Positions 4,825 through 43,889 of a DNA stretch of 64,000 nt are shown piece by piece. The stretch is from positions 2,480,001 through 2,544,000 of the forward strand of contig NZ_JACCBN010000001.1 of NCBI RefSeq assembly GCF_013409505.1, in the 5' to 3' direction. The first letter of the stretch is position 1, and the number at the start of each line of letters is the position of its first letter. The position numbers were made by a program, and so were the translations under genes. Origin of the DNA: Actinomycetospora corticicola. Its GTDB lineage: Bacteria; Actinomycetota; Actinomycetes; Mycobacteriales; Pseudonocardiaceae. Under the pieces are notes generated by a model, which ran no database searches, was not told the DNA's origin, and was given only the letters and a program-made list of their open reading frames with translations.

Positions 4825-5222
4825 GCGTCCATTGTCGCGCCCGCCCCGTTCCAGTCGACGAGCTGGACCACCACGCCGTTGGGGTCGCGGGTCTGGAACG
4901 CGCGCTCGCCCCACTCCTCGACGGTCAGCGGCATCGTGATCTCCACGCCCTCGTCCTGCAGCCGCGCGAGCTCGCCCTCCAGGTCGTCGACGACGAACGC
5001 CAGGATGAGGCCCTGCGCGGTGACGTCGCGCTGCTCGGGCGGCATCGTCTCCAGACCCGTGGCCAGGTAGACGACGTTCACGCCCGCGTCCGCCCGCTGC
5101 AGCGAGTGGAAGCTGCCCGGCGCGCTCATCACCGCCTCGAACCCGTAGTGGTCGACGAGGAACCGGGCCGAGGCGTCCGGGTCGGCGACGGTGAGGCTGA
5201 CGGCCGTGGCGGTGATGTGCAC
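4821..5222 (-). CDS. VOC superfamily (glyoxalase/bleomycin-resistance-like) protein
   Basis: The 133-residue protein has two beta-alpha-beta-beta-beta modules typical of VOC proteins (AVSLTVADPDASARFLVDHYGF at the start, FQTRDPNGVVVQLVDW at the end). It is the first gene of the VOC-GNAT-HipA-DUF3037 operon and is divergent from the TetR gene across 29 bp filled by a GTAC heptad repeat, so TetR control is likely. Substrate unknown; relatives are dioxygenases, glyoxalases or drug-binding resistance proteins. Confidence 0.85.
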   Translation of the reverse strand: MHITATAVSLTVADPDASARFLVDHYGFEAVMSAPGSFHSLQRADAGVNVVYLATGLETMPPEQRDVTAQGLILAFVVDDLEGELARLQDEGVEITMPLTVEEWGERAFQTRDPNGVVVQLVDWNGAGATMDA

Positions 5223-5225
5223 CCC

Positions 5226-5260
5226 GTACAGCGTACATTGTACGATGTACGATGTACGAT
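5226..5260. promoter_or_regulatory. five-fold GTAC heptad repeat, candidate TetR operator
   Basis: GTAC occurs at 5226, 5233, 5240, 5247 and 5254, exactly 7 bp apart, as GTACAGC, GTACATT and three copies of GTACGAT. Inside it CGTACATTGTACG (5232-5244) is a perfect 6-1-6 palindrome. The array fills the gap between the divergent VOC and TetR genes and runs into the first TetR codons. This is what a self-regulating TetR operator would look like; the binding itself is inferred. Confidence 0.6.
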
Positions 5261-5977
5261 GTGACCGATCCGGCGCGCGTCATCGCCCTGCTCTGGCGGA
5301 CGGCACCACCGCCGCGGCGCGGCCCGTCACGCGGCCTCACGGTCGACGGGGTGGTCGAGGCCGCGACCCGCCTCGCCGACACCGGCGGCCTCGAGCCCCT
5401 GACCATGCGCGCGCTCGCCGGCGCGCTCGGCGTCGCACCGATGACGCTCTACACCTACGTGCCCGGCAAGGCCGAGCTCGTCGACCTGCTCGTCGACCAC
5501 GCCTTCCTGACGATGGATCGAGGCGGGTCCGCCGGGCCGGGCTGGCGCGAGCGGGTGCAGGCGGTGATGGAGGAGAACCGCGCGCTGTACCGCGCGCACC
5601 CGTGGATCGGCGCGGTCGACCCGGGCCGCCCGGTCCTCGGGCCCGGCACGACGGCGAAGTACGAGCACGAGCTGGGCGCCTTCGGGGGATGCGGGCTGTC
5701 CGACGTCGACCGGGACGCCGCGCTGACGTTCGTCCTCGACTTCGTGGCGGCGTCCGCCCGGGCGGAGGCCCGCTCCGACCCGGCCGGCGACGAGGCGTGG
5801 TGGGCGGCGGCCGGGCCGGCGCTCGCGGAGGTGCTGGACCCGTCGTCGTACCCGCTGGCCACCCGGGTGGGCACCGCCGCGGGCGAGGCACAACGCAGCG
5901 CGCGCCACCCCGACGCCGCGTGGGCGTTCGGGACGGCGCGCGTGCTGGACGGTCTCGCGGCGCTGATCGACCGCTGA
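5252..5977 (+). CDS. TetR/AcrR family regulator
   Basis: The 241-residue protein carries an N-terminal helix-turn-helix (about residues 30-80: LTVDGVVEAATRLAD, then LTMRALAGALGVAPMTLYTYVPGKAEL) and a C-terminal ligand-binding domain of the TetR_C type. The start ATG 5252 lies inside the heptad repeat with no Shine-Dalgarno sequence, so the mRNA may be leaderless. It is divergent from the VOC-GNAT-HipA-DUF3037 operon, which it probably represses together with itself. Confidence 0.88.
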   Translation: MYDVTDPARVIALLWRTAPPPRRGPSRGLTVDGVVEAATRLADTGGLEPLTMRALAGALGVAPMTLYTYVPGKAELVDLLVDHAFLTMDRGGSAGPGWRERVQAVMEENRALYRAHPWIGAVDPGRPVLGPGTTAKYEHELGAFGGCGLSDVDRDAALTFVLDFVAASARAEARSDPAGDEAWWAAAGPALAEVLDPSSYPLATRVGTAAGEAQRSARHPDAAWAFGTARVLDGLAALIDR

Positions 5978-7159: not shown

Positions 7160-8065
7160 TCACAGGGACAGCTCGTGCACGGCGTTGCGCGCGCCGGAGG
7201 TCGGTTGTGTGCGACCAAGGGCGTCCGTCGCCCGCGCGGTGATCGTCCGCGCGCTCCCGACCGTCGCCCGGAACCCCTGCCAGGCCCGCCCCCGGGCGCG
7301 TTCGAGCTCGGCGGTGACCGGCCTGCCGTCCGCCGTCACGACGACGCGGGTGACCGGCACGGAGCTCCACGCCCAGCCGCGCGCCACGCCGTCGGTGACG
7401 TCGATGAGCACCGAGGTCACGTCGAGCTCCCGGACCGGCACCGACCGGCCGTCGGGACCGGGCCGCAGGTAGAGCCGCGTGGTGAACAGGTGCTCGGGGC
7501 GGTGGTCGGCGAGCGTGAGCTCGGTCAGCCACTTCACCGAGTTCGTCCCGAAGAACCCGGGGACCACGAGGCGCAGCGGGCCGCCGCGGTCGGCCTGCAA
7601 CCAGGTGTCGTTGCAGGCGTACGCGACGAGCGCGCGGTCGAGGACGGCGTCGACCGGGAGGTCCTTGAGGTAGTCCGGGCTCGTCTCCCCGCCGAACTCG
7701 CCGTGGTCGGCGCCGCGGGCCCAGACCGACGTGGCGTCCGGCTGCACGCCGGCGAGGTCGAGGACGTCGCGCAGCCGCGCGCCGGTCCACACCAGGTTCG
7801 CCGCCCGCCGCACCCACTCCCCCGGCGCCAGCGGGTTGCCGAAGCACTCGTGCACCGACTCGACCCGCCGCTGCGGCAGCGCCCGGACGTCGTCGGGCGT
7901 CAGCTCGACCGCACGGTCCACCAACCCGTTCACGACGACGGGTCGGTCCGGCCGGGGTGCGGCGAGGCCGAAGTGCCCGATGACGAACGCGTCCTCGAGA
8001 GCGGTGACCCGGCTCGTCAGCCGCTCGGGCGGCACGAGCCGACGGACGGCTCCGACGGTGTCCAT
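7160..8065 (-). CDS. sulfite-oxidase-family molybdopterin oxidoreductase
   Basis: About 301 residues. The N-terminal Moco domain contains HECFGNPL (the Cys is the expected molybdenum ligand) and VWTGARLRDVLDLAGV; the C-terminal part (VARGWAWSSVPVTRVVVTADG onward) is the Mo-co dimerisation domain of sulfite oxidases. There is no heme-binding domain and no obvious signal peptide in the chosen start, so the electron acceptor is unknown. ATG 8065 was taken; GTG 8077 would add four residues. It lies 22 bp downstream of the histidine kinase gene on the same strand. Confidence 0.82.
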   Translation of the reverse strand: MDTVGAVRRLVPPERLTSRVTALEDAFVIGHFGLAAPRPDRPVVVNGLVDRAVELTPDDVRALPQRRVESVHECFGNPLAPGEWVRRAANLVWTGARLRDVLDLAGVQPDATSVWARGADHGEFGGETSPDYLKDLPVDAVLDRALVAYACNDTWLQADRGGPLRLVVPGFFGTNSVKWLTELTLADHRPEHLFTTRLYLRPGPDGRSVPVRELDVTSVLIDVTDGVARGWAWSSVPVTRVVVTADGRPVTAELERARGRAWQGFRATVGSARTITARATDALGRTQPTSGARNAVHELSL

Positions 8066-8087
8066 CCGCGCGCGCACGGCCGGGACC

Positions 8088-9470
8088 CTACGGCGCCGAC
8101 GGCCAGCGCACCTCGATCCGCGCGCCGCCCTCGGGCGACCGCGCGGCACGCACGGCCCCGCCCCGGCTCTCGACCAGCCGCGCCACGAGCGCCAGGCCCA
8201 GCCCCGAGCCGGGCGTCCCACCCGTCGCGTCGAGCCGGGTGAAGCGGTCGAACACCCGCGCCCGCTCGTCGTCGGGGATGCCGGGCCCGTCGTCGTCGAC
8301 GAGCAACCGGGCCGACGACCCGGCCGGGACGACCGACACCTTGACCACCGTCGTCGCGTGTCGCCGTGCGTTCCCGAGCAGGTTGTCGAGCACCAGCCCG
8401 ACCTCGGCGGGCGTGCTCAGCGCCGACACCGCGGTCGGCGCCCAGACCGTGGTCACCGGCCCGTCGGGCTGCCGCTCCACGGCCTGGGCGACCGCCTCCC
8501 CGAGGTCGACCGGCTGCGCCTGCGGCAGCCGGCCGCCGTCCGCGCGGGCGAGGGCGAGCAGGTCGGTGACCAGCGAGGACAGGCGTTCGGCGTCCTGGGC
8601 CACGGATCGCCACGCCTCGGTGTCCTCCCCCGGCCGCGGGTGCGCGACCGCCACCTCCGCCTGCGCGCGCACCGAGGCGATCGGCGACCGGAGCTCGTGG
8701 GCGGCGTCGTCGGCGAAGCGCCGGACGGTCGAGACCGCGTCGTCGCGCCGGGCCAGCAGGGCGTTCAGCTCGACGGCGAGGGCGGCCACCTCGTCGTGCG
8801 CGGGCGGGACCGGCAGCCGCTCCCCCTCCCCGACCTGCGCCGCCGCCGTCCGGAGCCGGGTCACCGGACGCAGCGCCGCGCCCGCCGCGAACCAGGCGGC
8901 CGCAGCCAACGCGACCGCCGCGACCACGACCCCCGGCACGAACCAGAACGCGGCGTCGCCGAGCAGGGACGCGGCACCGAGGAGGTCGCGCGAGGCGACG
9001 ACCAGGCGCGGCGTCCCGTCGGGCAGCGTCACCGGCACCGCCACGTACCGGCGCGGTTCGGTCCCCGGCCCGCCGACGGTCACCGGCTCCCCGCTCGCCA
9101 GCGCCCGCACGACCGGCTCGGCGAGCGGCAGCGGACCACGCCCGTCCACCGGTGTCCCGGCCACGTCGGTCACGCGCAGCGGTGGCGGCAAGGGCTCGCC
9201 GTTCCGGACGGCGGGTGCGGCGGCCGCCGCGCGCTCGCGCAGCTCCCCGTCGCCGGCCTCCACGACCGCCGACAGCAGCAGTCCGGCCCCCAGTCGCGCC
9301 AGCGCGCCGAGCACCACGAGCGCCACCACGCCGACGACCAGCGCGATCCGGGTCCGCGTGGTCCGGCGGGCCCACCAGGCGCCGGGCCCCCGTCGTCCGT
9401 GAGGGGAGGATTCGAGCGCTCTCGTGGGCTGAGGGTTCCCCTCACGCGGGGTGGAGGGCGGGCCGTTCAC
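8088..9470 (-). CDS. two-component sensor histidine kinase
   Basis: The 460-residue kinase has two membrane segments (about residues 42-70 and 172-200) flanking an extracytoplasmic domain, a HAMP linker, a HisKA box with His258 in DAAHELRSP, and an ATPase domain with N-box (DNLLGNARRH), DDDGPGIPD and GSGLGLALV. The start is the GTG at 9470, overlapping the response regulator stop as GTGA; the frame stays open far upstream only as a shadow. It pairs with the regulator just upstream. The neighbouring LolA-like/ABC genes are divergent and a plausible target. Confidence 0.93.
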   Translation of the reverse strand: MNGPPSTPREGNPQPTRALESSPHGRRGPGAWWARRTTRTRIALVVGVVALVVLGALARLGAGLLLSAVVEAGDGELRERAAAAAPAVRNGEPLPPPLRVTDVAGTPVDGRGPLPLAEPVVRALASGEPVTVGGPGTEPRRYVAVPVTLPDGTPRLVVASRDLLGAASLLGDAAFWFVPGVVVAAVALAAAAWFAAGAALRPVTRLRTAAAQVGEGERLPVPPAHDEVAALAVELNALLARRDDAVSTVRRFADDAAHELRSPIASVRAQAEVAVAHPRPGEDTEAWRSVAQDAERLSSLVTDLLALARADGGRLPQAQPVDLGEAVAQAVERQPDGPVTTVWAPTAVSALSTPAEVGLVLDNLLGNARRHATTVVKVSVVPAGSSARLLVDDDGPGIPDDERARVFDRFTRLDATGGTPGSGLGLALVARLVESRGGAVRAARSPEGGARIEVRWPSAP

Positions 9471-34613: not shown

Positions 34614-36611
34614 ATGGCCGCCGTCCTGCTCACCGAGACCCCGGGCGGGGACCCGTTCGCCGGGGTCCCCGCCGGGCCGGCGCTCGCTGAGGCGCTGGCG
34701 GCGGTGACGGTGGCCGACCTGCCCGGCGAGCAGGTCGCGGCGTGGCTGCGGGCGAGTTTCCGGCAGCGCAACCACGACGACGCGGTGTTCCTCGACGCGG
34801 TCCGCCAGACCTGCCGCTCCCGCGCCGGGACGTGTCGTCGGGTGCTCGACGACGGGTTCGCGCCGCGGGTCGTCGCGGCCAATCTGGGCTGGTCGGCGAT
34901 CACCGCCTCGGCCCGCTACGGGCTGGCGCTGTTCGTGCTCGACGCCCACCCCGCCCTGGGCGCGGCGATGTCCAGCGGTGAGCTGGAGCAGCGCAAGGCC
35001 GAGATCTTCGAGGCGGCCACCGAGGGCCTCGCCGACCACCAGATCGCCGAGGTGATCCGGATCGTGCTGCCCGAGGCGCCGGGGCTGGCCTACCAGGCGC
35101 TGCGGGAACGGATCCTCGAGGTCGCCCGCGCCCTGGACCCGGCGTGGGCGGCGGCACGGCTCGCGGCGGCGGTCGCCCGGGCGCGGGTGGCGACCCGCCC
35201 CTCACCGTCCGGGGCGGTCGACCTGTGTGGCTACGACCTGCCCCCCGACCTGGCCCAGGACGCGAAGGCCCACCTCGACGCGCTGGCCGGGCCGGTGCAG
35301 GCGCGGCTGGCGTTGCTCGGGGTCGACCTCGGGATCGGGTTCATCTCCGCCCGCATCTTCACCCGGCTGCTCGACGGCACCCTCGCCGGACTCGACGACC
35401 CGGGCGTGCAGGACGCCATCGTCACCGAACTCGACGGCGGCGGTGCGCCCGACGACGGCGGGGCGGACCCCGACGACCAGGGACCCGATGACCAGGGACC
35501 CGATGACCAGGGACCCGACGATCGGGGACGCGACGGTCACGGACCCGAGCGCAGCCCGGACGGCGGACCGCAGCGCCCCGACGACAAATCCCCGGACGAC
35601 AGCAACCCCGACGACGGTCCCTCCAACGACGGCCCGCCCGACGACGGCCCGCACACTCCGCACGACAGCGACCCTGACGACGGGGACGGCCCGTCGGCCG
35701 AGGAGCCGGCCCCGGACACTCCGCCCGACAACGAGCCCGCGTCCGGCAGTTCCGCCCGCGGTGGGCCGCCGCGCGAAGCGGTGGTCGAGCCCTACCCCGC
35801 CGAGGTGGCGCTGCGGATGCGGCTGTCCACCCTGCTCGGCCACGACGACCACCCCGCCGAACTACCCGCCCTCGCCGGCACCCTGCCCGAGATCGCCCGC
35901 CGCCGCGCCCACGACCTCGGCGCCGCCACCTGGCAGATCCTCGTCCACGACGACCACGGCCACCTCACCCACGTGCTCTCCCTACGCGCCCCACCCCACG
36001 CCGACCGCGACCCCCGACACCGCCGACGCACCGTGCAGATCACCGCCCATGCGGCACTGCTCGACACCCTCGACCCGCCACGCGACCCGTGGCTGGCCGC
36101 GCTGCTCGCCGCCTACCACCGATCCCGCGACGCCCCACCCGACGAACACCCCGCCACCACCGGCCGCGACAGCGACCGACGCCTCCCCGGCGCCGCCCTC
36201 GCCCGCTGGATCGACGCCCGCGACCCCGTCTGCGTCGCCCCCGGCTGCCGCACCCTCGCCCGCCGCTGCGAACACGACCACACCCGCGACTGGCAGGACG
36301 GCGGCCGCACCCGCGCCGACGGCCTGGCCAACCTCTGCAAAGCCGACCACCGCGCCAAACACGCCCGCGGCTGGACCCACGACCAACCCGCCCCCGGCCG
36401 GTTCACCATCACCGACCCCACCGGCACCGTCCACCACACCGAGAGCCGCATCGTGCGCCCCCTACCCGACCCTGCCCCGGCCGAACACCCCCACGACCGA
36501 CCCGACCACGTATCGAGGACCGCCGGCGGCACCCTCGACTACCTCCGCGCCACCCGCGCCGTCCGCCGAGCGACGCCGACACCCAGCGAGGACGACGACC
36601 CGCCCTACTGA
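34614..36611 (+). CDS. DUF222/HNH endonuclease (13E12-type), SOS-controlled
   Basis: The 665-residue protein joins an N-terminal DUF222 domain (about 30-270), an Asp/Pro-rich linker (about 280-390) containing a DQGPD tandem repeat, and a C-terminal HNH nuclease (CVAPGC, CEHDHTRDWQDGG, LCKADHRAKH). The family is expanded in actinobacteria and resembles the REP13E12 genes of M. tuberculosis; its biological role is unsettled. ATG 34614 directly follows a LexA box. The second half of the gene uses almost only C-ending codons. Its last 7 bases overlap the convergent NUDIX gene. Confidence 0.9.
   Translation: MAAVLLTETPGGDPFAGVPAGPALAEALAAVTVADLPGEQVAAWLRASFRQRNHDDAVFLDAVRQTCRSRAGTCRRVLDDGFAPRVVAANLGWSAITASARYGLALFVLDAHPALGAAMSSGELEQRKAEIFEAATEGLADHQIAEVIRIVLPEAPGLAYQALRERILEVARALDPAWAAARLAAAVARARVATRPSPSGAVDLCGYDLPPDLAQDAKAHLDALAGPVQARLALLGVDLGIGFISARIFTRLLDGTLAGLDDPGVQDAIVTELDGGGAPDDGGADPDDQGPDDQGPDDQGPDDRGRDGHGPERSPDGGPQRPDDKSPDDSNPDDGPSNDGPPDDGPHTPHDSDPDDGDGPSAEEPAPDTPPDNEPASGSSARGGPPREAVVEPYPAEVALRMRLSTLLGHDDHPAELPALAGTLPEIARRRAHDLGAATWQILVHDDHGHLTHVLSLRAPPHADRDPRHRRRTVQITAHAALLDTLDPPRDPWLAALLAAYHRSRDAPPDEHPATTGRDSDRRLPGAALARWIDARDPVCVAPGCRTLARRCEHDHTRDWQDGGRTRADGLANLCKADHRAKHARGWTHDQPAPGRFTITDPTGTVHHTESRIVRPLPDPAPAEHPHDRPDHVSRTAGGTLDYLRATRAVRRATPTPSEDDDPPY
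35475..35519 (+). repeat. three 15-bp tandem repeats in the HNH gene linker
   Basis: GACCAGGGACCCGAT is repeated at 35475, 35490 and 35505 (the last unit ends GAC), encoding DQGPD three times, with a decayed fourth unit (DRGRD). Copy number is likely to vary between strains without breaking the frame. Confidence 0.85.
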
Positions 36612-37027
36612 CCGGACGACAGGAGCTCCAGGAGCCCCTCCGGGTACAGGACGGCGCGGCCGGCCACCACGTCGCGGAGCGGGAGCCACCGCACCGGCGT
36701 GCCCTCGTCGAGGATCGGACCCGGATCGGGGCGGTCGTAGAAGGCGGGGTCGGCGATCGACGCCGTGTAGAGCACCACGATCTCGTGGCCCGGACGCCCC
36801 TCGAACTCGAACACGTTCTCCAGCACGCCGACGCGCGCGACGTCCGTCAACGCCACGTCGAGCTCCTCGCGGAACTCCCGGTGCAGCGCCTGCTCGGAGA
36901 GCTCCCCGAACTCGATGCCCCCACCGAGCGGCCGGTAGAAGGTGTGGCCCCGGACGGCGTCGTGGCCCTCGAGCACCAGCAGGTCGTCACCGCGCCGCAC
37001 GATGCCCAGCACGAGCGGACGGATCAC
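36605..37027 (-). CDS. NUDIX hydrolase
   Basis: The 140-residue protein carries a NUDIX box (GGGIEFGELSEQALHREFREELDV, matching GX5EX7REUXEEXGU with the last G replaced). GTG 37027 is the start; the longer frame upstream is a shadow of mysD. It lies 10 bp after the mysD stop on the same strand, so it may be the tail of the mycosporine operon, but family members are general house-cleaning enzymes. Confidence 0.88.
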   Translation of the reverse strand: MIRPLVLGIVRRGDDLLVLEGHDAVRGHTFYRPLGGGIEFGELSEQALHREFREELDVALTDVARVGVLENVFEFEGRPGHEIVVLYTASIADPAFYDRPDPGPILDEGTPVRWLPLRDVVAGRAVLYPEGLLELLSSGQ

Positions 37028-37037
37028 GCCCGCAGTC

Positions 37038-38048
37038 TCACCGCCGGGCGACCGCGCGCGCCACCAGGTCGGAGAACAACGTCGACAGCGGAATCCCGGC
37101 CGCCCCGGCCATCGTCGCCACGACGCTCGACGGGCTGAACGAGCAGTACGGCCCCGCCTCGAGGAACCAGGGCCGCCCGTCGGGGTCGATCCGGAAGTCG
37201 AACAGCCCGTAGTCCCGGCACCCCAGGGCCGCGTAGCAGCGCCGCGACGCCTCCCACACGGCCTCGGTCGCCGGGTCGGACACGTCGACGATCCACGCCC
37301 GGCCCTCCCCCTTGGCCACCAGCCCGAGCTCCCCCGAGTCGGAGCGCGCGAGCTTGTCGGCCTCGCCACGGATCGGCGCGAGATCGCCCACCGGGTACTC
37401 CTCGAGCGGCAGGCACTCCAGCCCGTGGCCGCGGTCGAGCACCCCGCAGCGCACTTCGCGCCCGGCCGGGACGAACGTCTGCACCAGCGCCGACGCCGAG
37501 TGCTCGAACGCCGCCGTCAGCGCGTCGGGGTACTGCCCGGCGGCCCGGACGAGGGTCGTGCCCACCGAGTTGTCGGCGTCCGCGGGCTTCACGACGACGG
37601 GTGGCGCGAGCGTCGGGGTCTCCCCCGGCGCCAGGACCTCGGACGCCGGGACGTCCACGCCGGCCGCCGCGACCAGCGCGTTCGCCCGCGGCTTCACCAT
37701 CGACGCCGCCATGACCTCCGGGGCGTTGCCCACGTACGGCACACCGAGCACGTCGAAGAGGGCCCGGTAGGCGGTCATCCCGGCCGGACAGAACATCTGC
37801 GGGATCATGACGTCGGGGGCGAGTGCGGTCAGGTGCCCCACGGCGCCCGCCAGGTCCACCGGCGGGGCGGCGTCGAGGGCCGCCGGTGACAGGTCCCGCG
37901 GGAACCGCCACCGGCCGTCGGGCGAGACGTGGGCGACGGCGTCGTCGGGCCCGCCCACCGCGGAGAGCGCGCCGCGGGCGTAGAGCCGGGACAGGTCGGC
38001 GAAGAACTCGTCGGTCGGCGAGCCGACCAGGTGCAGGGCCCTAGTCAC
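37038..38048 (-). CDS. mysD: MysD-like D-Ala-D-Ala-ligase-type ATP-grasp enzyme
   Basis: The 336-residue protein has ATP-grasp motifs (PPVVVKPADADNSVGTTLV, LVQTFVPAGREVRCGVLD, RDYGLFDFRIDPDGRPWFLEAGPYCSF) and the MysD-type N-terminal run HVSPDGRWRFPRDLS and PQMFCPAGMTAYRALFDVLGVPYVGNAPEVM. MysD adds a second amino acid to mycosporine-glycine to give imine MAAs such as shinorine. Its GTG overlaps the mysC stop by 8 bases. It completes mysABCD. Confidence 0.88.
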   Translation of the reverse strand: MTRALHLVGSPTDEFFADLSRLYARGALSAVGGPDDAVAHVSPDGRWRFPRDLSPAALDAAPPVDLAGAVGHLTALAPDVMIPQMFCPAGMTAYRALFDVLGVPYVGNAPEVMAASMVKPRANALVAAAGVDVPASEVLAPGETPTLAPPVVVKPADADNSVGTTLVRAAGQYPDALTAAFEHSASALVQTFVPAGREVRCGVLDRGHGLECLPLEEYPVGDLAPIRGEADKLARSDSGELGLVAKGEGRAWIVDVSDPATEAVWEASRRCYAALGCRDYGLFDFRIDPDGRPWFLEAGPYCSFSPSSVVATMAGAAGIPLSTLFSDLVARAVARR

Positions 38049-39348
38049 CGCCGGGCTCCACGAGCTTCCCGATGTTGACGTCGATCTTCACCCAGTCCCG
38101 GCCGCCCAGCAGGTTCTCCAGGAGCAACGACGGGATCTGCAGGTGGTGGACCAGCAGGAACGGCAGCGGGTCGTGCACCGAGAAGATCGCGTCGGTGCCC
38201 TCCCACAGCGTCCGCACCCGCTCGGCCACCGACGACGGGTTCGACAACAGCCGCCACAGCTCCTGGTAGAGCCAGTAGGTGGGCCGGCTCTCGGTCGTCG
38301 GCCGCAGCGTCGGGCCCCCGTCCTCGAGGTAGGCCCTCGCCAGGGCGGGCTCCTGGTCGTAGAACATCGTGATCGCGGAGTGGGTCCGCGGGTTGCACTC
38401 GATCGCCCGCACACCGCCGTCGGCACCCACGATGAAGTCGAACGAGTACTGCCCGGTGAGCTTCCGCTCCGCGACGAACCGCGTCACCCACGCCTCGATC
38501 TCCGGGCGCTCGACGTGGTCGTAGTTGAGCTGGAACGCCGAGGACTCGCAGCAGCAGTAGACGGTGAGCACGCCGTCGCGTGCGGTCCCGTGCGTGCAGT
38601 ACTCCGTGCCCGCGACGAACTCCTGCAGGATCCACGGCCGGTCCGGCGCGATCGGCTTCGAGGCCGCGAACGCGCGGGTCTCCTCGACGCTCGCGCGCGG
38701 CAGCGGCGTGAGGTCGAGCCGGTTGACCGAGTCGTAGGGGATCGACTTGAGCACGTAGGTCGATCCCGGCGGGAAGTCGAACGCCGCGACCTCGTCGGCC
38801 GAGGTGACCCGGTGCGTGTCCGGCACCGGCAGCCCCACGTCGGAGGCCGCCGCGGCGAAGGCGGCCTTGTCGTCCACGGTGCCGATGTCCTCGACGTCGC
38901 CGTGCACGACCTCGCAGTACTGCTCGAGCAGCGGCCGGGCCTGCGCGTCGTACCAGCTCGACGCGGGGCTGCACACCGGGACGTACACGTCGACGCCCTC
39001 GGCCCGCACCACGTCGACGAGGGCCTGCGCGTAGCCCGGGTCGTCCGGCGGCGGCACGACGTGGAACGCGTCGACGGCCGCCGAGAAGCGGTGCCCGGTG
39101 AGGCGGTACTTCGCCGCCTCGACGAGCACCACCCGGTGCCCCGCGGCGTGGAACGCCCGCGCCAGCGCGAGCGCCTTCGTCATCTTCCCGCCGCTGATCA
39201 GCACGGTGCGCGGCCGGTCCGGCCGCTCCCGTGCGGGTGTCCCGACGACGGACGAGTACAGCAGCGCCCCCGCCGTCACCGCGAGGTTGGCGGGCAGGGC
39301 GGCCGCGAGCAGCGCCTGCATCCCGACGGTGCGCAGGACGCGGTTCAC
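38041..39348 (-). CDS. mysC: MysC-like ATP-grasp ligase
   Basis: The 435-residue protein begins with a hydrophobic helix (VGMQALLAAALPANLAV), then a Rossmann start (RTVLISGGKMTKALALARAFH) and an ATP-grasp fold (STYVLKSIPYDSVNRLDL, PWILQEFVAGTEYCTHG, YSFDFIVGADGGVRAIECNPRTHS). MysC joins glycine to 4-deoxygadusol to form mycosporine-glycine. The GTG start overlaps the mysB stop as GTGA. Confidence 0.9.
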   Translation of the reverse strand: MNRVLRTVGMQALLAAALPANLAVTAGALLYSSVVGTPARERPDRPRTVLISGGKMTKALALARAFHAAGHRVVLVEAAKYRLTGHRFSAAVDAFHVVPPPDDPGYAQALVDVVRAEGVDVYVPVCSPASSWYDAQARPLLEQYCEVVHGDVEDIGTVDDKAAFAAAASDVGLPVPDTHRVTSADEVAAFDFPPGSTYVLKSIPYDSVNRLDLTPLPRASVEETRAFAASKPIAPDRPWILQEFVAGTEYCTHGTARDGVLTVYCCCESSAFQLNYDHVERPEIEAWVTRFVAERKLTGQYSFDFIVGADGGVRAIECNPRTHSAITMFYDQEPALARAYLEDGGPTLRPTTESRPTYWLYQELWRLLSNPSSVAERVRTLWEGTDAIFSVHDPLPFLLVHHLQIPSLLLENLLGGRDWVKIDVNIGKLVEPGGD

Positions 39349-40130
39349 GGCAGCACCCGGATCAGCGTGATGCCGTCCCGCAGCGGGACGACCACCTGCT
39401 CGAGGCGAGGGTCCGCCGCGACGTCCGCGTTGAACGCCGCGATCGCGCGCCCGTTCTCCGTGTCCGGCCCCGCCCAGGGCTGGCCCTGCATGAGGGTGTT
39501 GTCCACGCACACCAGCCCGCCCGGGGCGAGCAGCCCCGTCGTCAGGATCGTCTCGAGGTAGTCGGCGTAGCCGGCCTTGTCGGCGTCGATGAAGACCAGG
39601 TCGAACGCCTCCCCGGCCAGCGCGGACAGGGTCTCGCCGGCCGGGCCGACGCGGACGTCGATGCGGCGGCCCGCCGTGGAGCCGGCGAACTGTTCACGGG
39701 CGAACGCGGCGACCTCCGGGTCGATCTCGAGGGCGACCACCGACCCGTCGTCGGGAAGGGCCTCGGCGAGGGCGAGCGCCGAGTAACCGGTGAACATCCC
39801 GACCTCCAGCACCCGCCGCGCGCGCATGGCGTGCGCGAGCATCGCGAGGAAGCGTCCTTCGACGTGCCCGGAGAGCATTTCCTGCTCGAGGGAGCCGGCG
39901 GCGTCGCGCCAGTCGTACGCGGCGGTCGCCCGGGCGAGGGCCGCGAGGTCAGCCGACTCGGCCGACGTCATGGACTCGACGTAGGGGTCGAGCCCGACGG
40001 CGAGGTCGCGCGCCGCCCGGAGGTCGTCCTCCAGCGGCGTCCCCGCCGCCCGCCCGAGGAGATCCTCGAGGCGGGCGGCCAGGATCGAGGCCGGCGTGAC
40101 CGGGCGCGCGGCGCCCGGAGCGGTCCTCAC
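39345..40130 (-). CDS. mysB: MysB-like O-methyltransferase
   Basis: The 261-residue protein is a SAM-dependent catechol-type O-methyltransferase: [58 protein letters not shown], and [12 protein letters not shown]. With the adjacent cyclase it would convert 2-demethyl-4-deoxygadusol to 4-deoxygadusol. It starts at GTG 40130, overlapping the mysA stop; a longer ATG frame only shadows mysA. Confidence 0.92.
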
Positions 40131-41341
40131 GCCTGCTCCGGCACCACGAACATGTCCTCGCCCTCGCCCTGGCGGGGGTACGAGCGGACGACCTCGTTGT
40201 GCGTGTCGACCGTCTCGGAGAGCTCCTCCGGGGTGAGGTCGTTGATGAAGAAGCAGGTGCCGATCGGCCGCGGGACCGCCGCGCGCAGCTGGCCGTTGCG
40301 GGTCTGGGTGATCGAGTCGGTGGCCTTGGCCAGCAACTCCGGCGTCAGGTGCGGACTGGTGAGGGTGAGCCCGATGCGGCTCATCAGCCAGAAGATGCGG
40401 TCGCGCTCGCTGACCGAGATGTAGCCCCGGCGCTCGGCGAGCGTGGTGGAGAGGGCCATGTCGATCGAGATGGCGTGCCCGTGGAAGTACGGGGGCTCCG
40501 GGGTGAGCTCGATCGTCGGGCTCCAGGTGTGCCCGAAGGCGATGACACGGTCGAGGTCGAGCTCCCAGAGGTTGGGCACCTCGAGCTCGAGCATGGTGCG
40601 GATCGCGTCGTAGGTCAGACGGTGCGCGATCTCGCGCAGCTCCGGCGTCCCGTCGAGGTGCCCGAAGCGGGTGTGGAGCAGGTCCTCGCCGTACTTCTCG
40701 AGCAGCTCGAAGATGCCGGCGTTGCCCACCGTCGAGATCTTGACCAGTTCGGCCATCCCGTTGCGGACCTGGTCGACCGGCAGGGTCTTCAGGAACGAGA
40801 AGTCGAGGATGACCTGCTGCGACGCGTGGAACGAGCCCAGGCGGTTCTTGTTCTTGCCGTGGTTGACCGCGACCTTGATCGCCACGCTGGCGTCGATGAG
40901 CCCGATCAGCGTGGTGGGGATCCGGATGTAGGGCGTGGCGCGTCGGAACAGCGAACAGGCCGTGCCGGTCACGTCGGTCATCAGCCCGCCGCCGACCACC
41001 AGCACCGGCTCGGTGCGGTTCAGGCCGAAGTCGCCGAACGCGTCGACGATCTTCTCGACCGTCCGCAGCGTCTTGTCGGGCTCGCGGATGATGATCGGGA
41101 ACGTCGTCAGCGCGAGGCCGTGGTGGTCGAAGTAGGCCTGCATCTGCTCGCCGTAGAGCTCGTGGACGGTCCGGTCCACGATCATCAGCGAGCGGCCGAA
41201 CGGACGGTACGCGTCGGCGAGCTGGGGGTTGGCGGGATCGAAGACGCCGTCGACGTAGACCAACGAGTAGTCGATCTTCTCGTAGGCCTCGACGTGGAAG
41301 GCGGTCTCGGTGCTGGTCAACGTGGGCTGAGGGGCGACCAT
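40127..41341 (-). CDS. mysA: MysA-like sugar-phosphate cyclase (2-demethyl-4-deoxygadusol synthase)
   Basis: The 404-residue protein belongs to the dehydroquinate-synthase-like cyclases: [49 protein letters not shown] holds the NAD and metal-site residues, [11 protein letters not shown] is conserved, and AFGHTWSP carries the metal His. The methyltransferase and ATP-grasp neighbours favour the DDGS (mycosporine) branch over the valiolone synthase branch, both of which use sedoheptulose 7-phosphate. It is the first canonical gene of mysABCD, 79 bp after the HAD-like gene. Confidence 0.92.
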
Positions 41342-41371
41342 GGCTCGGGCTCCATTGGGCAGGCCGGATCA

Positions 41372-41394
41372 CGGCCCGGCGGTGTGCCGGGCCG
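41372..41394. terminator. strong stem-loop between the HAD-like gene and mysA
   Basis: CGGCCCGGC (41372-41380) pairs perfectly with GCCGGGCCG (41386-41394) around GGTGT. In the minus-strand transcript it lies 31 bases before the mysA start, so it could attenuate or process the message between the two genes. No T-tract follows. Confidence 0.5.
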
Positions 41395-41420
41395 GTCGGG
41401 AAGACGGGGGGAGGGTGGGA

Positions 41421-42083
41421 CTACGCGAGCGCGCGCAGCTCGGCGAGGTTCAGGGTGTCCACGCGGGTGTCGGCGGCCGAGAAGTCGTGGCCCGCGGTGT
41501 TGGCGTTCGGGAAGGCGACGGTGGTGATCCCGGCGCCCTTGGCGGCGGCGACCCCGCCGACGTTGTCCTCGATGGCGACGACGTCGCCCGGCTCGAGGCC
41601 GGTCTCGCGCAGCGCCGTCCGGTAGGCCTCCGGGTCGGGCTTGACGTTCTCCACCCGGGAGGTGTCCTCGATGACGTCGAAGTCCGCGGTCCGGATGTCG
41701 GGCTCGAGCGCGTCGAGCAGCGCGCGGACGTTGTCCCGGCTCGTGGACGTGACGAGTCCCAGCTTCAGGCCGGACTCCTTGGCCCCGCGCACGACGTCGA
41801 GGACGCCGGGCCGCGGGGCGGTCTGCTCGGTGGCGAGCGACTCCTGGAAGATGCGCGACTTGGTCGCGTGGACGGCCTCGGCGTCGACCGACTGGCCGTG
41901 CTGGGCGGCGAAGTCGGCGATCCGCTGCGCTCCGCCGTTGCTCTCGAGCATCGCGAGGTAGTCCTCGCGGCTCCACTCCCAGCCCAGGTCGTGCTCGGCG
42001 AAGGCCCGGTTGAAGGCCTTGCGCTGCAGCTCCGAGGTGTCGACGACGGTCGAGATCGAGCCGAAGAAGATCGCAGAGGTCAC
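41421..42083 (-). CDS. HAD-IA-like protein lacking the catalytic DxD
   Basis: The 220-residue protein matches CbbY/beta-phosphoglucomutase-type HADs over its length (ELQRKAFNRAFAEHDL cap; LKLGLVTSTSRDN motif II; ENVKPDPEAYRTAL motif III; VVAIEDNVGGVAAAKGAG motif IV). But motif I, normally FDxDGT, reads FFGSIST: the nucleophile Asp is Gly8 and the second Asp is Ile10. Ordinary HAD phosphatase chemistry should not work. Start GTG 42083. It precedes mysA by 79 bp and lies behind a perfect palindrome, so it may serve the MAA pathway as a binding or regulatory protein or an enzyme with other chemistry. Confidence 0.82.
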   Translation of the reverse strand: MTSAIFFGSISTVVDTSELQRKAFNRAFAEHDLGWEWSREDYLAMLESNGGAQRIADFAAQHGQSVDAEAVHATKSRIFQESLATEQTAPRPGVLDVVRGAKESGLKLGLVTSTSRDNVRALLDALEPDIRTADFDVIEDTSRVENVKPDPEAYRTALRETGLEPGDVVAIEDNVGGVAAAKGAGITTVAFPNANTAGHDFSAADTRVDTLNLAELRALA

Positions 42084-42108
42084 GGGTCAGCCGCTCCAGG
42101 GATGGCGG

Positions 42109-42125
42109 GGAGACGATTCGTCTCC
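42109..42125. promoter_or_regulatory. 17-bp perfect palindrome upstream of the HAD-mys operon
   Basis: GGAGACGATTCGTCTCC has two perfect 8-base arms around one base and lies 25 bp upstream of the HAD-like gene start. A second perfect palindrome, CCGGTGGCCACCGG, is at 42158-42171. The first is a good operator candidate for the mycosporine operon; the second may instead end the transcript of the small membrane gene. Confidence 0.5.
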
Positions 42126-42220
42126 GCGTCGGGTGCGTGGGATGCAGGGGGCCGACGCCGGTGGCCACCGGACGACGGGAGAGGTTCCTCGGTGGAAGGG
42201 CTACCCCACGATCCCGAGCA

Positions 42221-42487
42221 CTAACGTGTCGAGTCCTCCGACACTGCGCGCACGAGGGCGACCGCGGCCACGACCCCCAGCACGACGACGGGCACCCACA
42301 GGTTGAACGGCGCCGGCAGGAGCGCGGTGAGGACCGCGACGAGCAGGGCGACCGCGAGCACGGCGAGCACCTGGGCGGGCGCCGGGGCGTCGCCGGGGCG
42401 GCGGGCGGTGCGGCGGTACCCGGTGAGGATCGCCTCGAACTCGCCCTGCTCGCGGGCGTCGAGGGGCCGCCCGCCGTCGTCGGTCAC
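42221..42487 (-). CDS. small two-helix membrane protein (DUF3040-like)
   Basis: The 88-residue protein has an N-terminal LDAREQGEFEAILTGYRR helix and two adjacent membrane segments (VLAVLAVALLVAVLTALL and LWVPVVVLGVVAAVALV), the layout of actinobacterial DUF3040-type proteins. GTG 42487 is the start; the longer frame upstream is a shadow of the P450. It lies 40 bp after the P450 gene on the same strand. Function unknown. Confidence 0.6.
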   Translation of the reverse strand: MTDDGGRPLDAREQGEFEAILTGYRRTARRPGDAPAPAQVLAVLAVALLVAVLTALLPAPFNLWVPVVVLGVVAAVALVRAVSEDSTR

Positions 42488-42527: not shown

Positions 42528-43823
42528 TCAGACGTGCGCCGGCATCCGCTTGACCACGTGGAAGAAGTTGCCCGGCATGAGCTCCGGCTCGCCCGCGGCG
42601 ATGTGCGGGGCCCGCGTGAGCAGTTCGGTGAACAGGGCGCGGAGCTGGAAGCGGGCGAGCTGGTTGCCCAGGCAGTGGTGGATACCACCGCCGCCGAAGC
42701 TGACGTGCGGGTTCGGGTGGCGGGAGAGGTCGAGCTCGTGGGCCCGCTCGATCCGGCTCTCGTCGCGGTTCGCGGAGCTGTAGAACATGACGACCTTGTC
42801 GCCCGCGGTGATCTGCGCACCCCGGAACTCCACGTCGCGGGACGCGGTGCGCCGGAAGGTCATGATCGGCGTCGCCCAGCGCACGATCTCCTCGACGGCG
42901 GGCTGGATGCGGCCCTCGAGGTCCTCGAGCAACCACGCCCGCTGCTCCGGGTGGTCGGTGAGGGCGCGCAGCCCGTGGCTCGTCGACTGCCGCGTGGTGT
43001 CGGTGCCGGCGATCGTGAGCAGGCAGAAGAAGGCCGCGATGTCGGCGTCGGTGAGCTTCTCCCCGTCGACCTCGGCCTCCACCAGCGCCGTGATCAGGTC
43101 GTCCTGCGGCTGCTCACGACGCTCGTTCGCCAGCCGCGTGCACAGCTGGTGGGTGGTGACGATCGCCTGGAACATCCGTCCGAGGCGCTCCTCCTGCGTG
43201 GTCCCCACGAGCTCGGGGTCCTGCCACCCGACGAGGACCTTCATCTCGCGGTTGGCCTCCTGCCGGTCCCCCTCCGGCACGCCCATCATGTCGTTGATGT
43301 TGTGCATCGGGAGCAGCTCGGCGCACTCGGCGACGAACTCGGCGGTGCCGCCGCCGGCCTCGGCCACCTCGAGGAGGTGGTCGACGACCGAGCGGGCGTT
43401 CGCCTCGATCCGGTCGTTGATCCGCCGCATCTGCTTGGGGGTGAAGGCGGCGGACACCAGGCGGCGCATCTTCGTGTGCCGCGGCGGGTCCATGCCGATG
43501 ATCGACTGCGCGGCCTCGACGAACTCGTGCGGCGCGCTCTCCATGAGGATGCCCGGCCCGGAGAGGAAGTCGTCCGGACGCCGGGTCACCTCGACCAGGT
43601 CGTCGTAGGTGGTCACCGCCCAGAACCCGTGGTCGTCCGGGTCGTCGAGCAGCGAGTCCTCCATCGGCGGGTGCCAGGTGATCGTCCCGCGGGCCCGCAG
43701 CCGCGCGAACGTCTCCTCCCGCTCCTCACCGGTCGCGGACCAGAAGGCCTTCGACGAGATGTCCTCGGCGTCGTACGGCCGGTCCGGGTTCCCGCTGGCG
43801 GTGCTGGTCGAGTGCTGGGTCAT
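42528..43823 (-). CDS. cytochrome P450
   Basis: The 431-residue enzyme shows the heme loop FGGGGIHHCLGN with Cys384, the I-helix AGTDTTR, the ExxR-type region, and DPPRHTKMRRLVSAAFTPK. It resembles actinobacterial P450s acting on sterol or fatty-acid-like substrates, but the substrate cannot be assigned. No ferredoxin gene is adjacent. It is divergent from a TetR gene, the probable regulator. Confidence 0.95.
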   Translation of the reverse strand: MTQHSTSTASGNPDRPYDAEDISSKAFWSATGEEREETFARLRARGTITWHPPMEDSLLDDPDDHGFWAVTTYDDLVEVTRRPDDFLSGPGILMESAPHEFVEAAQSIIGMDPPRHTKMRRLVSAAFTPKQMRRINDRIEANARSVVDHLLEVAEAGGGTAEFVAECAELLPMHNINDMMGVPEGDRQEANREMKVLVGWQDPELVGTTQEERLGRMFQAIVTTHQLCTRLANERREQPQDDLITALVEAEVDGEKLTDADIAAFFCLLTIAGTDTTRQSTSHGLRALTDHPEQRAWLLEDLEGRIQPAVEEIVRWATPIMTFRRTASRDVEFRGAQITAGDKVVMFYSSANRDESRIERAHELDLSRHPNPHVSFGGGGIHHCLGNQLARFQLRALFTELLTRAPHIAAGEPELMPGNFFHVVKRMPAHV

Positions 43824-43840
43824 CGGTGACCTCCGGATGG

Positions 43841-43862
43841 GGCGAGCGGAGCGACGGGGGGT
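43841..43862. repeat. 22-nt intergenic repeat, copy 2
   Basis: Identical over 22 bases to 11325-11346. Here it lies 17 bp upstream of the P450 start, in the P450-TetR divergent gap. Confidence 0.7.
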
Positions 43863-43889
43863 GCTGTGGCGGCGACGACTCGAATGATG

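Follow-up and report, generated by a model that had tools for sequence, protein, structure and literature searches.

The MAA operon of Actinomycetospora corticicola is headed by a gene for a HAD-like protein in which both catalytic aspartates of motif I, the nucleophile and the acid/base, have been replaced while motifs II–IV have been retained. The reading favoured here, at a probability of about 0.45, is that this protein is a CbbY-derived pseudophosphatase that would bind a sugar or cyclitol phosphate without cleaving it, and would thereby assist or regulate the pathway. The whole stretch of DNA analysed, 64,000 nucleotides in length, is referred to below as the window.

Organization of the operon

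The operon was read on one strand in the order HAD, 79 nt, mysA, mysB, mysC, mysD and Nudix, with the following features.

41421–42083, minus strand: gene for a predicted CbbY-type HAD pseudophosphatase (220 aa; start codon GTG)
42048–42065, minus strand: codons of motif I (F7-G8-S9-I10-S11-T12), in which both the nucleophile and the acid/base Asp are replaced
41748–41750, minus strand: motif II Thr112 codon, retained
41640–41642, minus strand: motif III Lys148 codon, retained
41565–41570, minus strand: motif IV Glu172-Asp173 codons, retained
41342–41420, minus strand: 79-nt gap between the HAD stop and the mysA start
40127–41341, minus strand: mysA, desmethyl-4-deoxygadusol synthase (DDGS) type sugar phosphate cyclase; 582 bits against PDB 5tpr, 290 bits against ValA (4p53)
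39345–40130, minus strand: mysB, O-methyltransferase, 4-nt overlap with mysA
38041–39348, minus strand: mysC, ATP-grasp ligase (NF005315, 417 bits), start inferred, GTGA overlap with the mysB stop
37038–38048, minus strand: mysD, D-Ala-D-Ala-ligase-like
36605–37120, minus strand: Nudix hydrolase, 3' of mysD, start uncertain

The HAD protein starts MTSAIFFGSISTVVDTSELQR (translation of window positions 41421–42083, minus strand). The initial annotation had the coordinates of the gene right and placed it ahead of mysA, where it was found on the same strand; the minus strand itself was absent from that annotation. The operon was assigned to the DDGS type because the mysA product scored 582 bits against 5tpr, an entry titled 3-dehydroquinate synthase which we take to be the Anabaena DDGS, and only 290 bits against ValA. 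The genes by which an MAA cluster is recognised, those for a DDGS, an O-methyltransferase and an ATP-grasp ligase, optionally joined by one for a D-Ala ligase-like protein, were all present, and the nearest named loci, at 95% identity, were from Actinomycetospora. A scan of 41300–42300 for sigma-70-like promoters and intrinsic-terminator-like sites was negative, a result of little weight in a high-GC actinobacterium. The Nudix gene also occurred in four other clusters that lack tauD (L009, L010, L011 and L031). A cytochrome P450 gene lies upstream of the HAD gene on the same strand (42528–43874, minus strand); it was also present in L009 and partly in L011, and was not found in L010 or L031.

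Residues replaced and retained

Alignment columns were compared across three sets: distinct HADs of actinobacterial MAA clusters (49), GSI-type HADs of Rhodobacterales (19) and canonical CbbY-like HADs (33). Three identical duplicates (L028–L030) were dropped, and L130, at first placed with the Rhodobacterales set, was counted as canonical since it has DxD. Positions 8, 10, 17 and 20 were D, D, E and H in all 33 canonical sequences, so that loss of the aspartates as a general trait of CbbY relatives was rejected; the second HAD copies found in Actinomycetospora genomes that have the Asp-less copy also keep DxD. The MAA set had G8, S17 and Q20 in 49/49 and I10 in 47/49, with L10 in the other two. 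Motif I, for which the initial annotation had read FFGSIST with G8 and I10 in place of the aspartates, was confirmed in the window protein and was FGSIST in 31 members of the set, LGSIST in six, FGSISS in six and LGSISS in two, with FGSLSS, FGSLST, FGSISV and FGSIGT found once each. FGSIGT was also read in a copy outside the 49, that of genome G1067.

Motifs II–IV, described as intact in the same annotation, were found complete. Nine residues (G50, G51, R54, H72, K75, T112, K148, E172 and D173) were invariant in 49/49 MAA HADs, and these together with R21, N25 and R91 were among 24 columns that were identical in the MAA and canonical sets at a level of at least 95%. Eight columns were fixed differently in the two sets (canonical to MAA: D8G, V9S, D10I, G11S, E17S, H20Q, A111V and S174N), six of them within motif I and the linker that follows it and two, A111V and S174N, outside. 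Measured against the HAD superfamily, the protein thus has the core and cap fold and the Thr, Lys and Glu-Asp of motifs II, III and IV, and lacks the DxD of motif I. The column comparison indicates that the chemistry of motif I has been removed and other residues fixed in its place, with motifs II–IV and several cap-region positions kept. By analogy with relatives, the cap positions would bind substrate.

Selection on the gene was examined with simple pairwise Nei-Gojobori estimates of dN/dS for nine chosen pairs. Of the six pairings that the window, L009, L010 and L011 allow, four were used and gave 0.08–0.16 for the HAD gene, 0.07–0.12 for mysA and 0.10–0.16 for mysB. Higher values were obtained for the HAD gene than for mysA in three pairs with L031 (0.22–0.27 vs 0.12–0.15), between L033 and L034 (0.37 vs 0.22) and between the window and L033 (0.60 vs 0.29), which indicates that the HAD is constrained, yet less so than the cyclase. 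The fixation of G8 and of I10 or L10 in 49/49 sequences, combined with a dN/dS of 0.08–0.16 among the closest relatives, makes the motif I replacement more than chance, and drift or pseudogene formation was rejected on the same grounds. The proposal that the fold has been kept and re-purposed is supported by these fixed replacements and by purifying selection among close relatives.

Predicted structure and phylogeny

The protein matched Pfam HAD_2 at 9.2e-26. Structure prediction, suggested as a check by the initial annotation, gave a CbbY-type fold: the AlphaFold2 model, built from 14 sequences, had a mean pLDDT of 93.2, and its top PDB matches in Foldseek were the Rhodobacter sphaeroides CbbY entries 4uau, 4uar and 4uat, with TM scores of 0.87–0.89 and 37–38% identity. 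CbbY was also the first match of the sequence profile. CbbY is described in PMC10212915 as a specific phosphatase of xylulose-1,5-bisphosphate (XuBP).

An unrooted maximum-likelihood tree of 101 rows, constructed without nine more divergent Asp-less copies from Rhodobacterales, placed the MAA proteins in one clade with support of 100/92. A branch supported at 100/99 set the 68 Asp-less rows (49 MAA and 19 Rhodobacterales GSI-type) apart from the 33 canonical ones, and the MAA HADs are therefore not placed among the canonical CbbY-like proteins. For these 101 rows the simplest reading is that both aspartates would have been lost once, with recruitment to MAA operons following.

Linkage to mysA in Actinomycetota

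Within the genus the Asp-less HAD was found in 14/18 genomes, the same 14 that had mysA at more than 700 bits, and the remaining four had neither. Across the order it was present in 26/397 genomes, always with an adjoining mysA, and mysA itself in 28/397; both counts fell at clear gaps in bit score (HAD at least 292, next 144; mysA at least 667, next 350). Counted by genus, the nine genera with the HAD all fell within the ten with mysA, out of 85 in the order sample. Two genomes of this sample, G100 and G167, have mysABCD without the HAD. A phylum-wide sample, which shares some genomes with that of the order, gave the HAD in 7/396 genomes (at least 278 bits, next 151) with a cyclase adjoining in 7/7. 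The cyclase was divergent in two of the seven, G765 and G901, at 292–302 bits; an EEVS-type cyclase was not supported in either, since both scored higher against 5tpr (235–257 bits) than against ValA (186–190 bits). In the corresponding loci, L167 and L168, the cyclase is 36–38% to the window MysA and the order is cyclase-HAD-mysB-mysC-mysD-tauD.

The weaker HAD matches in the genus (14) and the order (12) all keep D8 and D10. Two CbbY-like HADs of the order, L216 and L218, have FDLDA as motif I, with both aspartates present and the next Gly (G11) replaced.

A search of the family of G205 found the HAD in 3/94 genomes, two of them already counted and the third being G1067. In G1067 (L182, C1:5095000-5114000) the HAD lies beside mysC and mysD with tauD on the other strand, and no mysA or mysB was present within the 19 kb around it; the locus could represent either a cluster in decay or one supplied by a cyclase at another site. 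A scan of named genomes gave 19 loci, and all eight actinobacterial loci among them adjoin mysABCD. Taken over the whole-genome searches, 44 of the 45 HAD-bearing Actinomycetota genomes have an adjoining mysA-type cyclase, these genomes being related and not independent. The suggestion that the protein is linked to the pathway is therefore borne out in Actinomycetota, where the Asp-less HAD is nearly always next to mysA, and it very likely has a role in MAA biology.

The HAD gene was immediately 5' of mysA in 47/49 loci, with a median gap of 33 nt (range −4 to 181) as estimated from mysA starts projected from the window protein, and followed the cyclase in the two divergent-cyclase loci. The position of tauD was more variable. 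It followed mysB in 22/49 loci, one of them (L134) with mysC and mysD read from the other strand, followed mysD in 15 loci and in both divergent-cyclase loci, and was itself read from the other strand in L012 and L139. L015 had just a distant TauD relative (28%), 5.5 kb away. No tauD was found in the stretches of seven loci (the window, L009, L010, L011, L031, L037 and L171), nor any TauD match at 1e-20 in the window genome, and the HAD is retained in these clusters without tauD. In L035 and L036 (G001 and G003; about 5100–5700) tauD is degenerate between mysB and mysC and the HAD is intact. In the MAA clusters L142 and L144 mysB went undetected; the mysA and mysC matches there are about 96–216 bp apart, too close to hold an O-methyltransferase gene.

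Asp-less relatives in Rhodobacterales

In the family to which Jannaschia marina (G414) belongs, a search of 248 genomes gave 63 HAD matches, spread over 55 genomes, and motif I was read in all 63. Both aspartates were kept in 36 of the matches, and 27, from 22 genomes, lacked D8 and D10; among the 28 matches at or below 175 bits, 19 had both aspartates and nine lacked them. One further GSI-type HAD was found on a Roseobacter litoralis plasmid in a tblastn scan that returned 66 plasmid records, motif I being read in the R. litoralis record alone. DDGS-like mysA was absent from the 14 of the 22 Asp-less-HAD genomes that were searched, which are those with the higher-scoring copies; the best match was 123 bits, in the range of aroB, and one of the 14 had no cyclase match at all. 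Loss of the motif I aspartates is thus not specific to MAA clusters, and such specificity was rejected. The initial annotation had held that GSI-type HADs occurring widely with no link to mysA would speak against a role in the pathway; such proteins do occur in Rhodobacterales, and the linkage in Actinomycetota holds.

The 19 Rhodobacterales proteins of the column comparison (L017 and L112–L129) share D8G, D10I/V, E17S and H20Q with the MAA set in 19/19 each, and differ in that G11 is kept in 19/19 and position 174 is variable. Nine further copies, for which motif I alone was compared, were more varied (FGSIG, FGSLG, FGSLQ, FGGIG, FGGMG and FAGIG). The divergent Asp-less loci L196, L202, L204, L205, L207 and L210 have FGSLQ, FGGIG, FAGIG, FGGMG and FGSLG. 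The genes around the Rhodobacterales copies showed no common function among the loci examined. Three GSI-type HADs adjoin a TauD gene in the absence of mysA (L017/L131, with L017 at 8004–9391, L114 and L119), several have carB and aspS on either side or close by, and one (L118, 2866–5926, minus strand) has as its immediate neighbours genes for a V4R-domain and a radical-SAM/B12 protein, presumably bchJ and bchE.

Discussion

Judged by its residues, the MAA HAD very probably lacks HAD phosphatase activity. With the two catalytic residues lost and the phosphate-binding ones kept, it is probably a helper or sensor and not an ordinary enzyme, and the chance that it binds a phosphorylated metabolite may be put at slightly better than even. 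In the proposed course of events a CbbY-type sugar phosphatase would have lost its nucleophile and acid/base aspartates in an ancestor shared with the Rhodobacterales proteins, and one Asp-less branch would then have been recruited into actinobacterial MAA operons. The resulting pseudophosphatase would use its retained core and cap residues to hold a sugar or cyclitol in phosphorylated form, without cleaving it. The step most likely to be served would be the mysA cyclase reaction, either by delivery of substrate to MysA or by allosteric control through direct contact. This placement is tentative; in its favour, the HAD keeps its place beside mysA where tauD does not, and the ligands of the CbbY class are ketose phosphates. 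Sedoheptulose 7-phosphate, by analogy with that class, is a plausible candidate ligand. Phosphorylated 4-deoxygadusol is an intermediate of MysC and an alternative candidate. A strictly cyclase-bound role is challenged chiefly by G1067 and the Rhodobacterales HAD-TauD pairs. The G100 and G167 operons without a HAD, the faster evolution of the HAD relative to mysA, the mycosporine-glycine obtained from mysABC alone (PMC11284840, below) and the persistence of Asp-less relatives in mysA-free Rhodobacterales among the genomes searched also count against the favoured reading. A more specific and unlikely version is that the pseudophosphatase is a metabolite sensor or valve which would read sedoheptulose 7-phosphate or phosphorylated 4-deoxygadusol in the old ketose-phosphatase pocket and gate the cyclase; sunscreen synthesis would then follow the pentose-phosphate supply.

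The same invariant residues could serve an active enzyme that works on an MAA intermediate without an Asp nucleophile, with G8, S9, S17, Q20, N174, N193 and N195 forming a new active site. Conservation of T112, K148, E172 and D173 in 49/49 proteins and fixation of the replacing residues would suit such an enzyme, which is nonetheless unlikely: no HAD enzyme is known to us to dispense with the motif I aspartate, two clusters do without the HAD, and the mysABC genes of R. fascians alone led to mycosporine-glycine in Streptomyces, as reported in the accessible part of PMC11284840. Since mysABC suffices there, the mycosporine-glycine route does not require the HAD as an enzyme.

The frequency of tauD in these clusters raises the question of whether the HAD is a partner of the TauD-family dioxygenase, which is thought to make palythines, and a relic elsewhere. 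A TauD gene is in or beside 41/49 HAD-bearing clusters (two of the genes being degenerate), the two clusters that lack the HAD have no tauD in their stretches (L145 and L146), three Rhodobacterales HADs adjoin TauD without mysA, and HAD and TauD are described as highly co-localized in PMC11888242. The window genome and its TauD-less congeners nevertheless keep the HAD with all its fixed residues and a dN/dS of 0.08–0.27, and the HAD remains next to mysA even where tauD is found in another place or on the other strand. Upkeep of the HAD in TauD-less clusters weakens partnership with TauD as the sole role, and this explanation is considered improbable.

Loss of catalysis with conservation of the fold is a common course for pseudoenzymes, and would fit a regulator or scaffold acting purely through protein-protein contacts, in which the pocket residues merely hold the fold. 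Relatives use the core residues T112, K148, E172 and D173 in catalysis; all 49 proteins have them, with no obvious need for them in a scaffold, which leaves this explanation with a low probability. That the gene is a hitch-hiker with a function unrelated to MAAs, as the unrelated settings of the Asp-less relatives in Rhodobacterales (carB/aspS; the radical-SAM and V4R pair) might suggest, is very improbable given the adjoining mysA-type cyclase in 44/45 Actinomycetota genomes.

MAAs are UV-screening compounds that soil bacteria make, and their clusters are commonly presented as sets of three or four enzymes. If the favoured pseudophosphatase reading is correct, a non-catalytic protein beside the cyclase across Actinomycetota would be an unrecognised control or assembly component, and might account for differences in yield in heterologous MAA production. 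The published HAD gene would be better probed for binding and regulation than for phosphatase activity, and the Rhodobacterales relatives offer a second, MAA-independent setting in which the role of Asp-less CbbY proteins could be approached.

Comparison with known systems

A HAD gene has been reported in MAA clusters before. The 2025 GATOR-GC preprint (PMC11888242), in its accessible text, describes conservation of a HAD and a TauD gene in actinobacterial MAA clusters and records both from Actinomycetota, Pseudomonadota and Bacillota, with the role of the HAD unvalidated. The claim in the initial annotation that no MAA cluster with such a protein was described is therefore too strong. The HAD of the preprint is very probably the same gene, the two being equated by description and not through the P. 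alni sequence: both have a HAD Pfam domain, both belong to Actinomycetota MAA clusters, in the preprint including those of Pseudonocardia, and both have TauD nearby, and conservation of a HAD gene in actinobacterial MAA clusters was found here too. They differ in that the available text treats the HAD as a possible enzyme, and the main text, as far as accessible, does not mention lost catalytic residues. The new part is the lost motif I nucleophile, which was not found in print in the portions of the literature accessible. Literature searches covering few subscription journals returned no other paper on the MAA-cluster HAD or its pseudoenzyme state, a weak absence, and the term haloacid is absent from the text of PMC9789016, PMC8928166 and PMC10510106.

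Among proteins of known structure, the closest is CbbY of R. sphaeroides (4uar, 4uat and 4uau), which the MAA HAD resembles in predicted fold, in its colinear motif I numbering and in the residues of motifs II–IV and the cap. It is unlike CbbY in that D8, D10, E17 and H20 are all replaced and in its linkage to mysA, and it was not classed as a CbbY phosphatase because the catalytic residues are absent. Another HAD-fold pseudoenzyme is Tim50, which likewise has a HAD-like fold without catalysis, and which belongs to a different HAD branch and has a different role.
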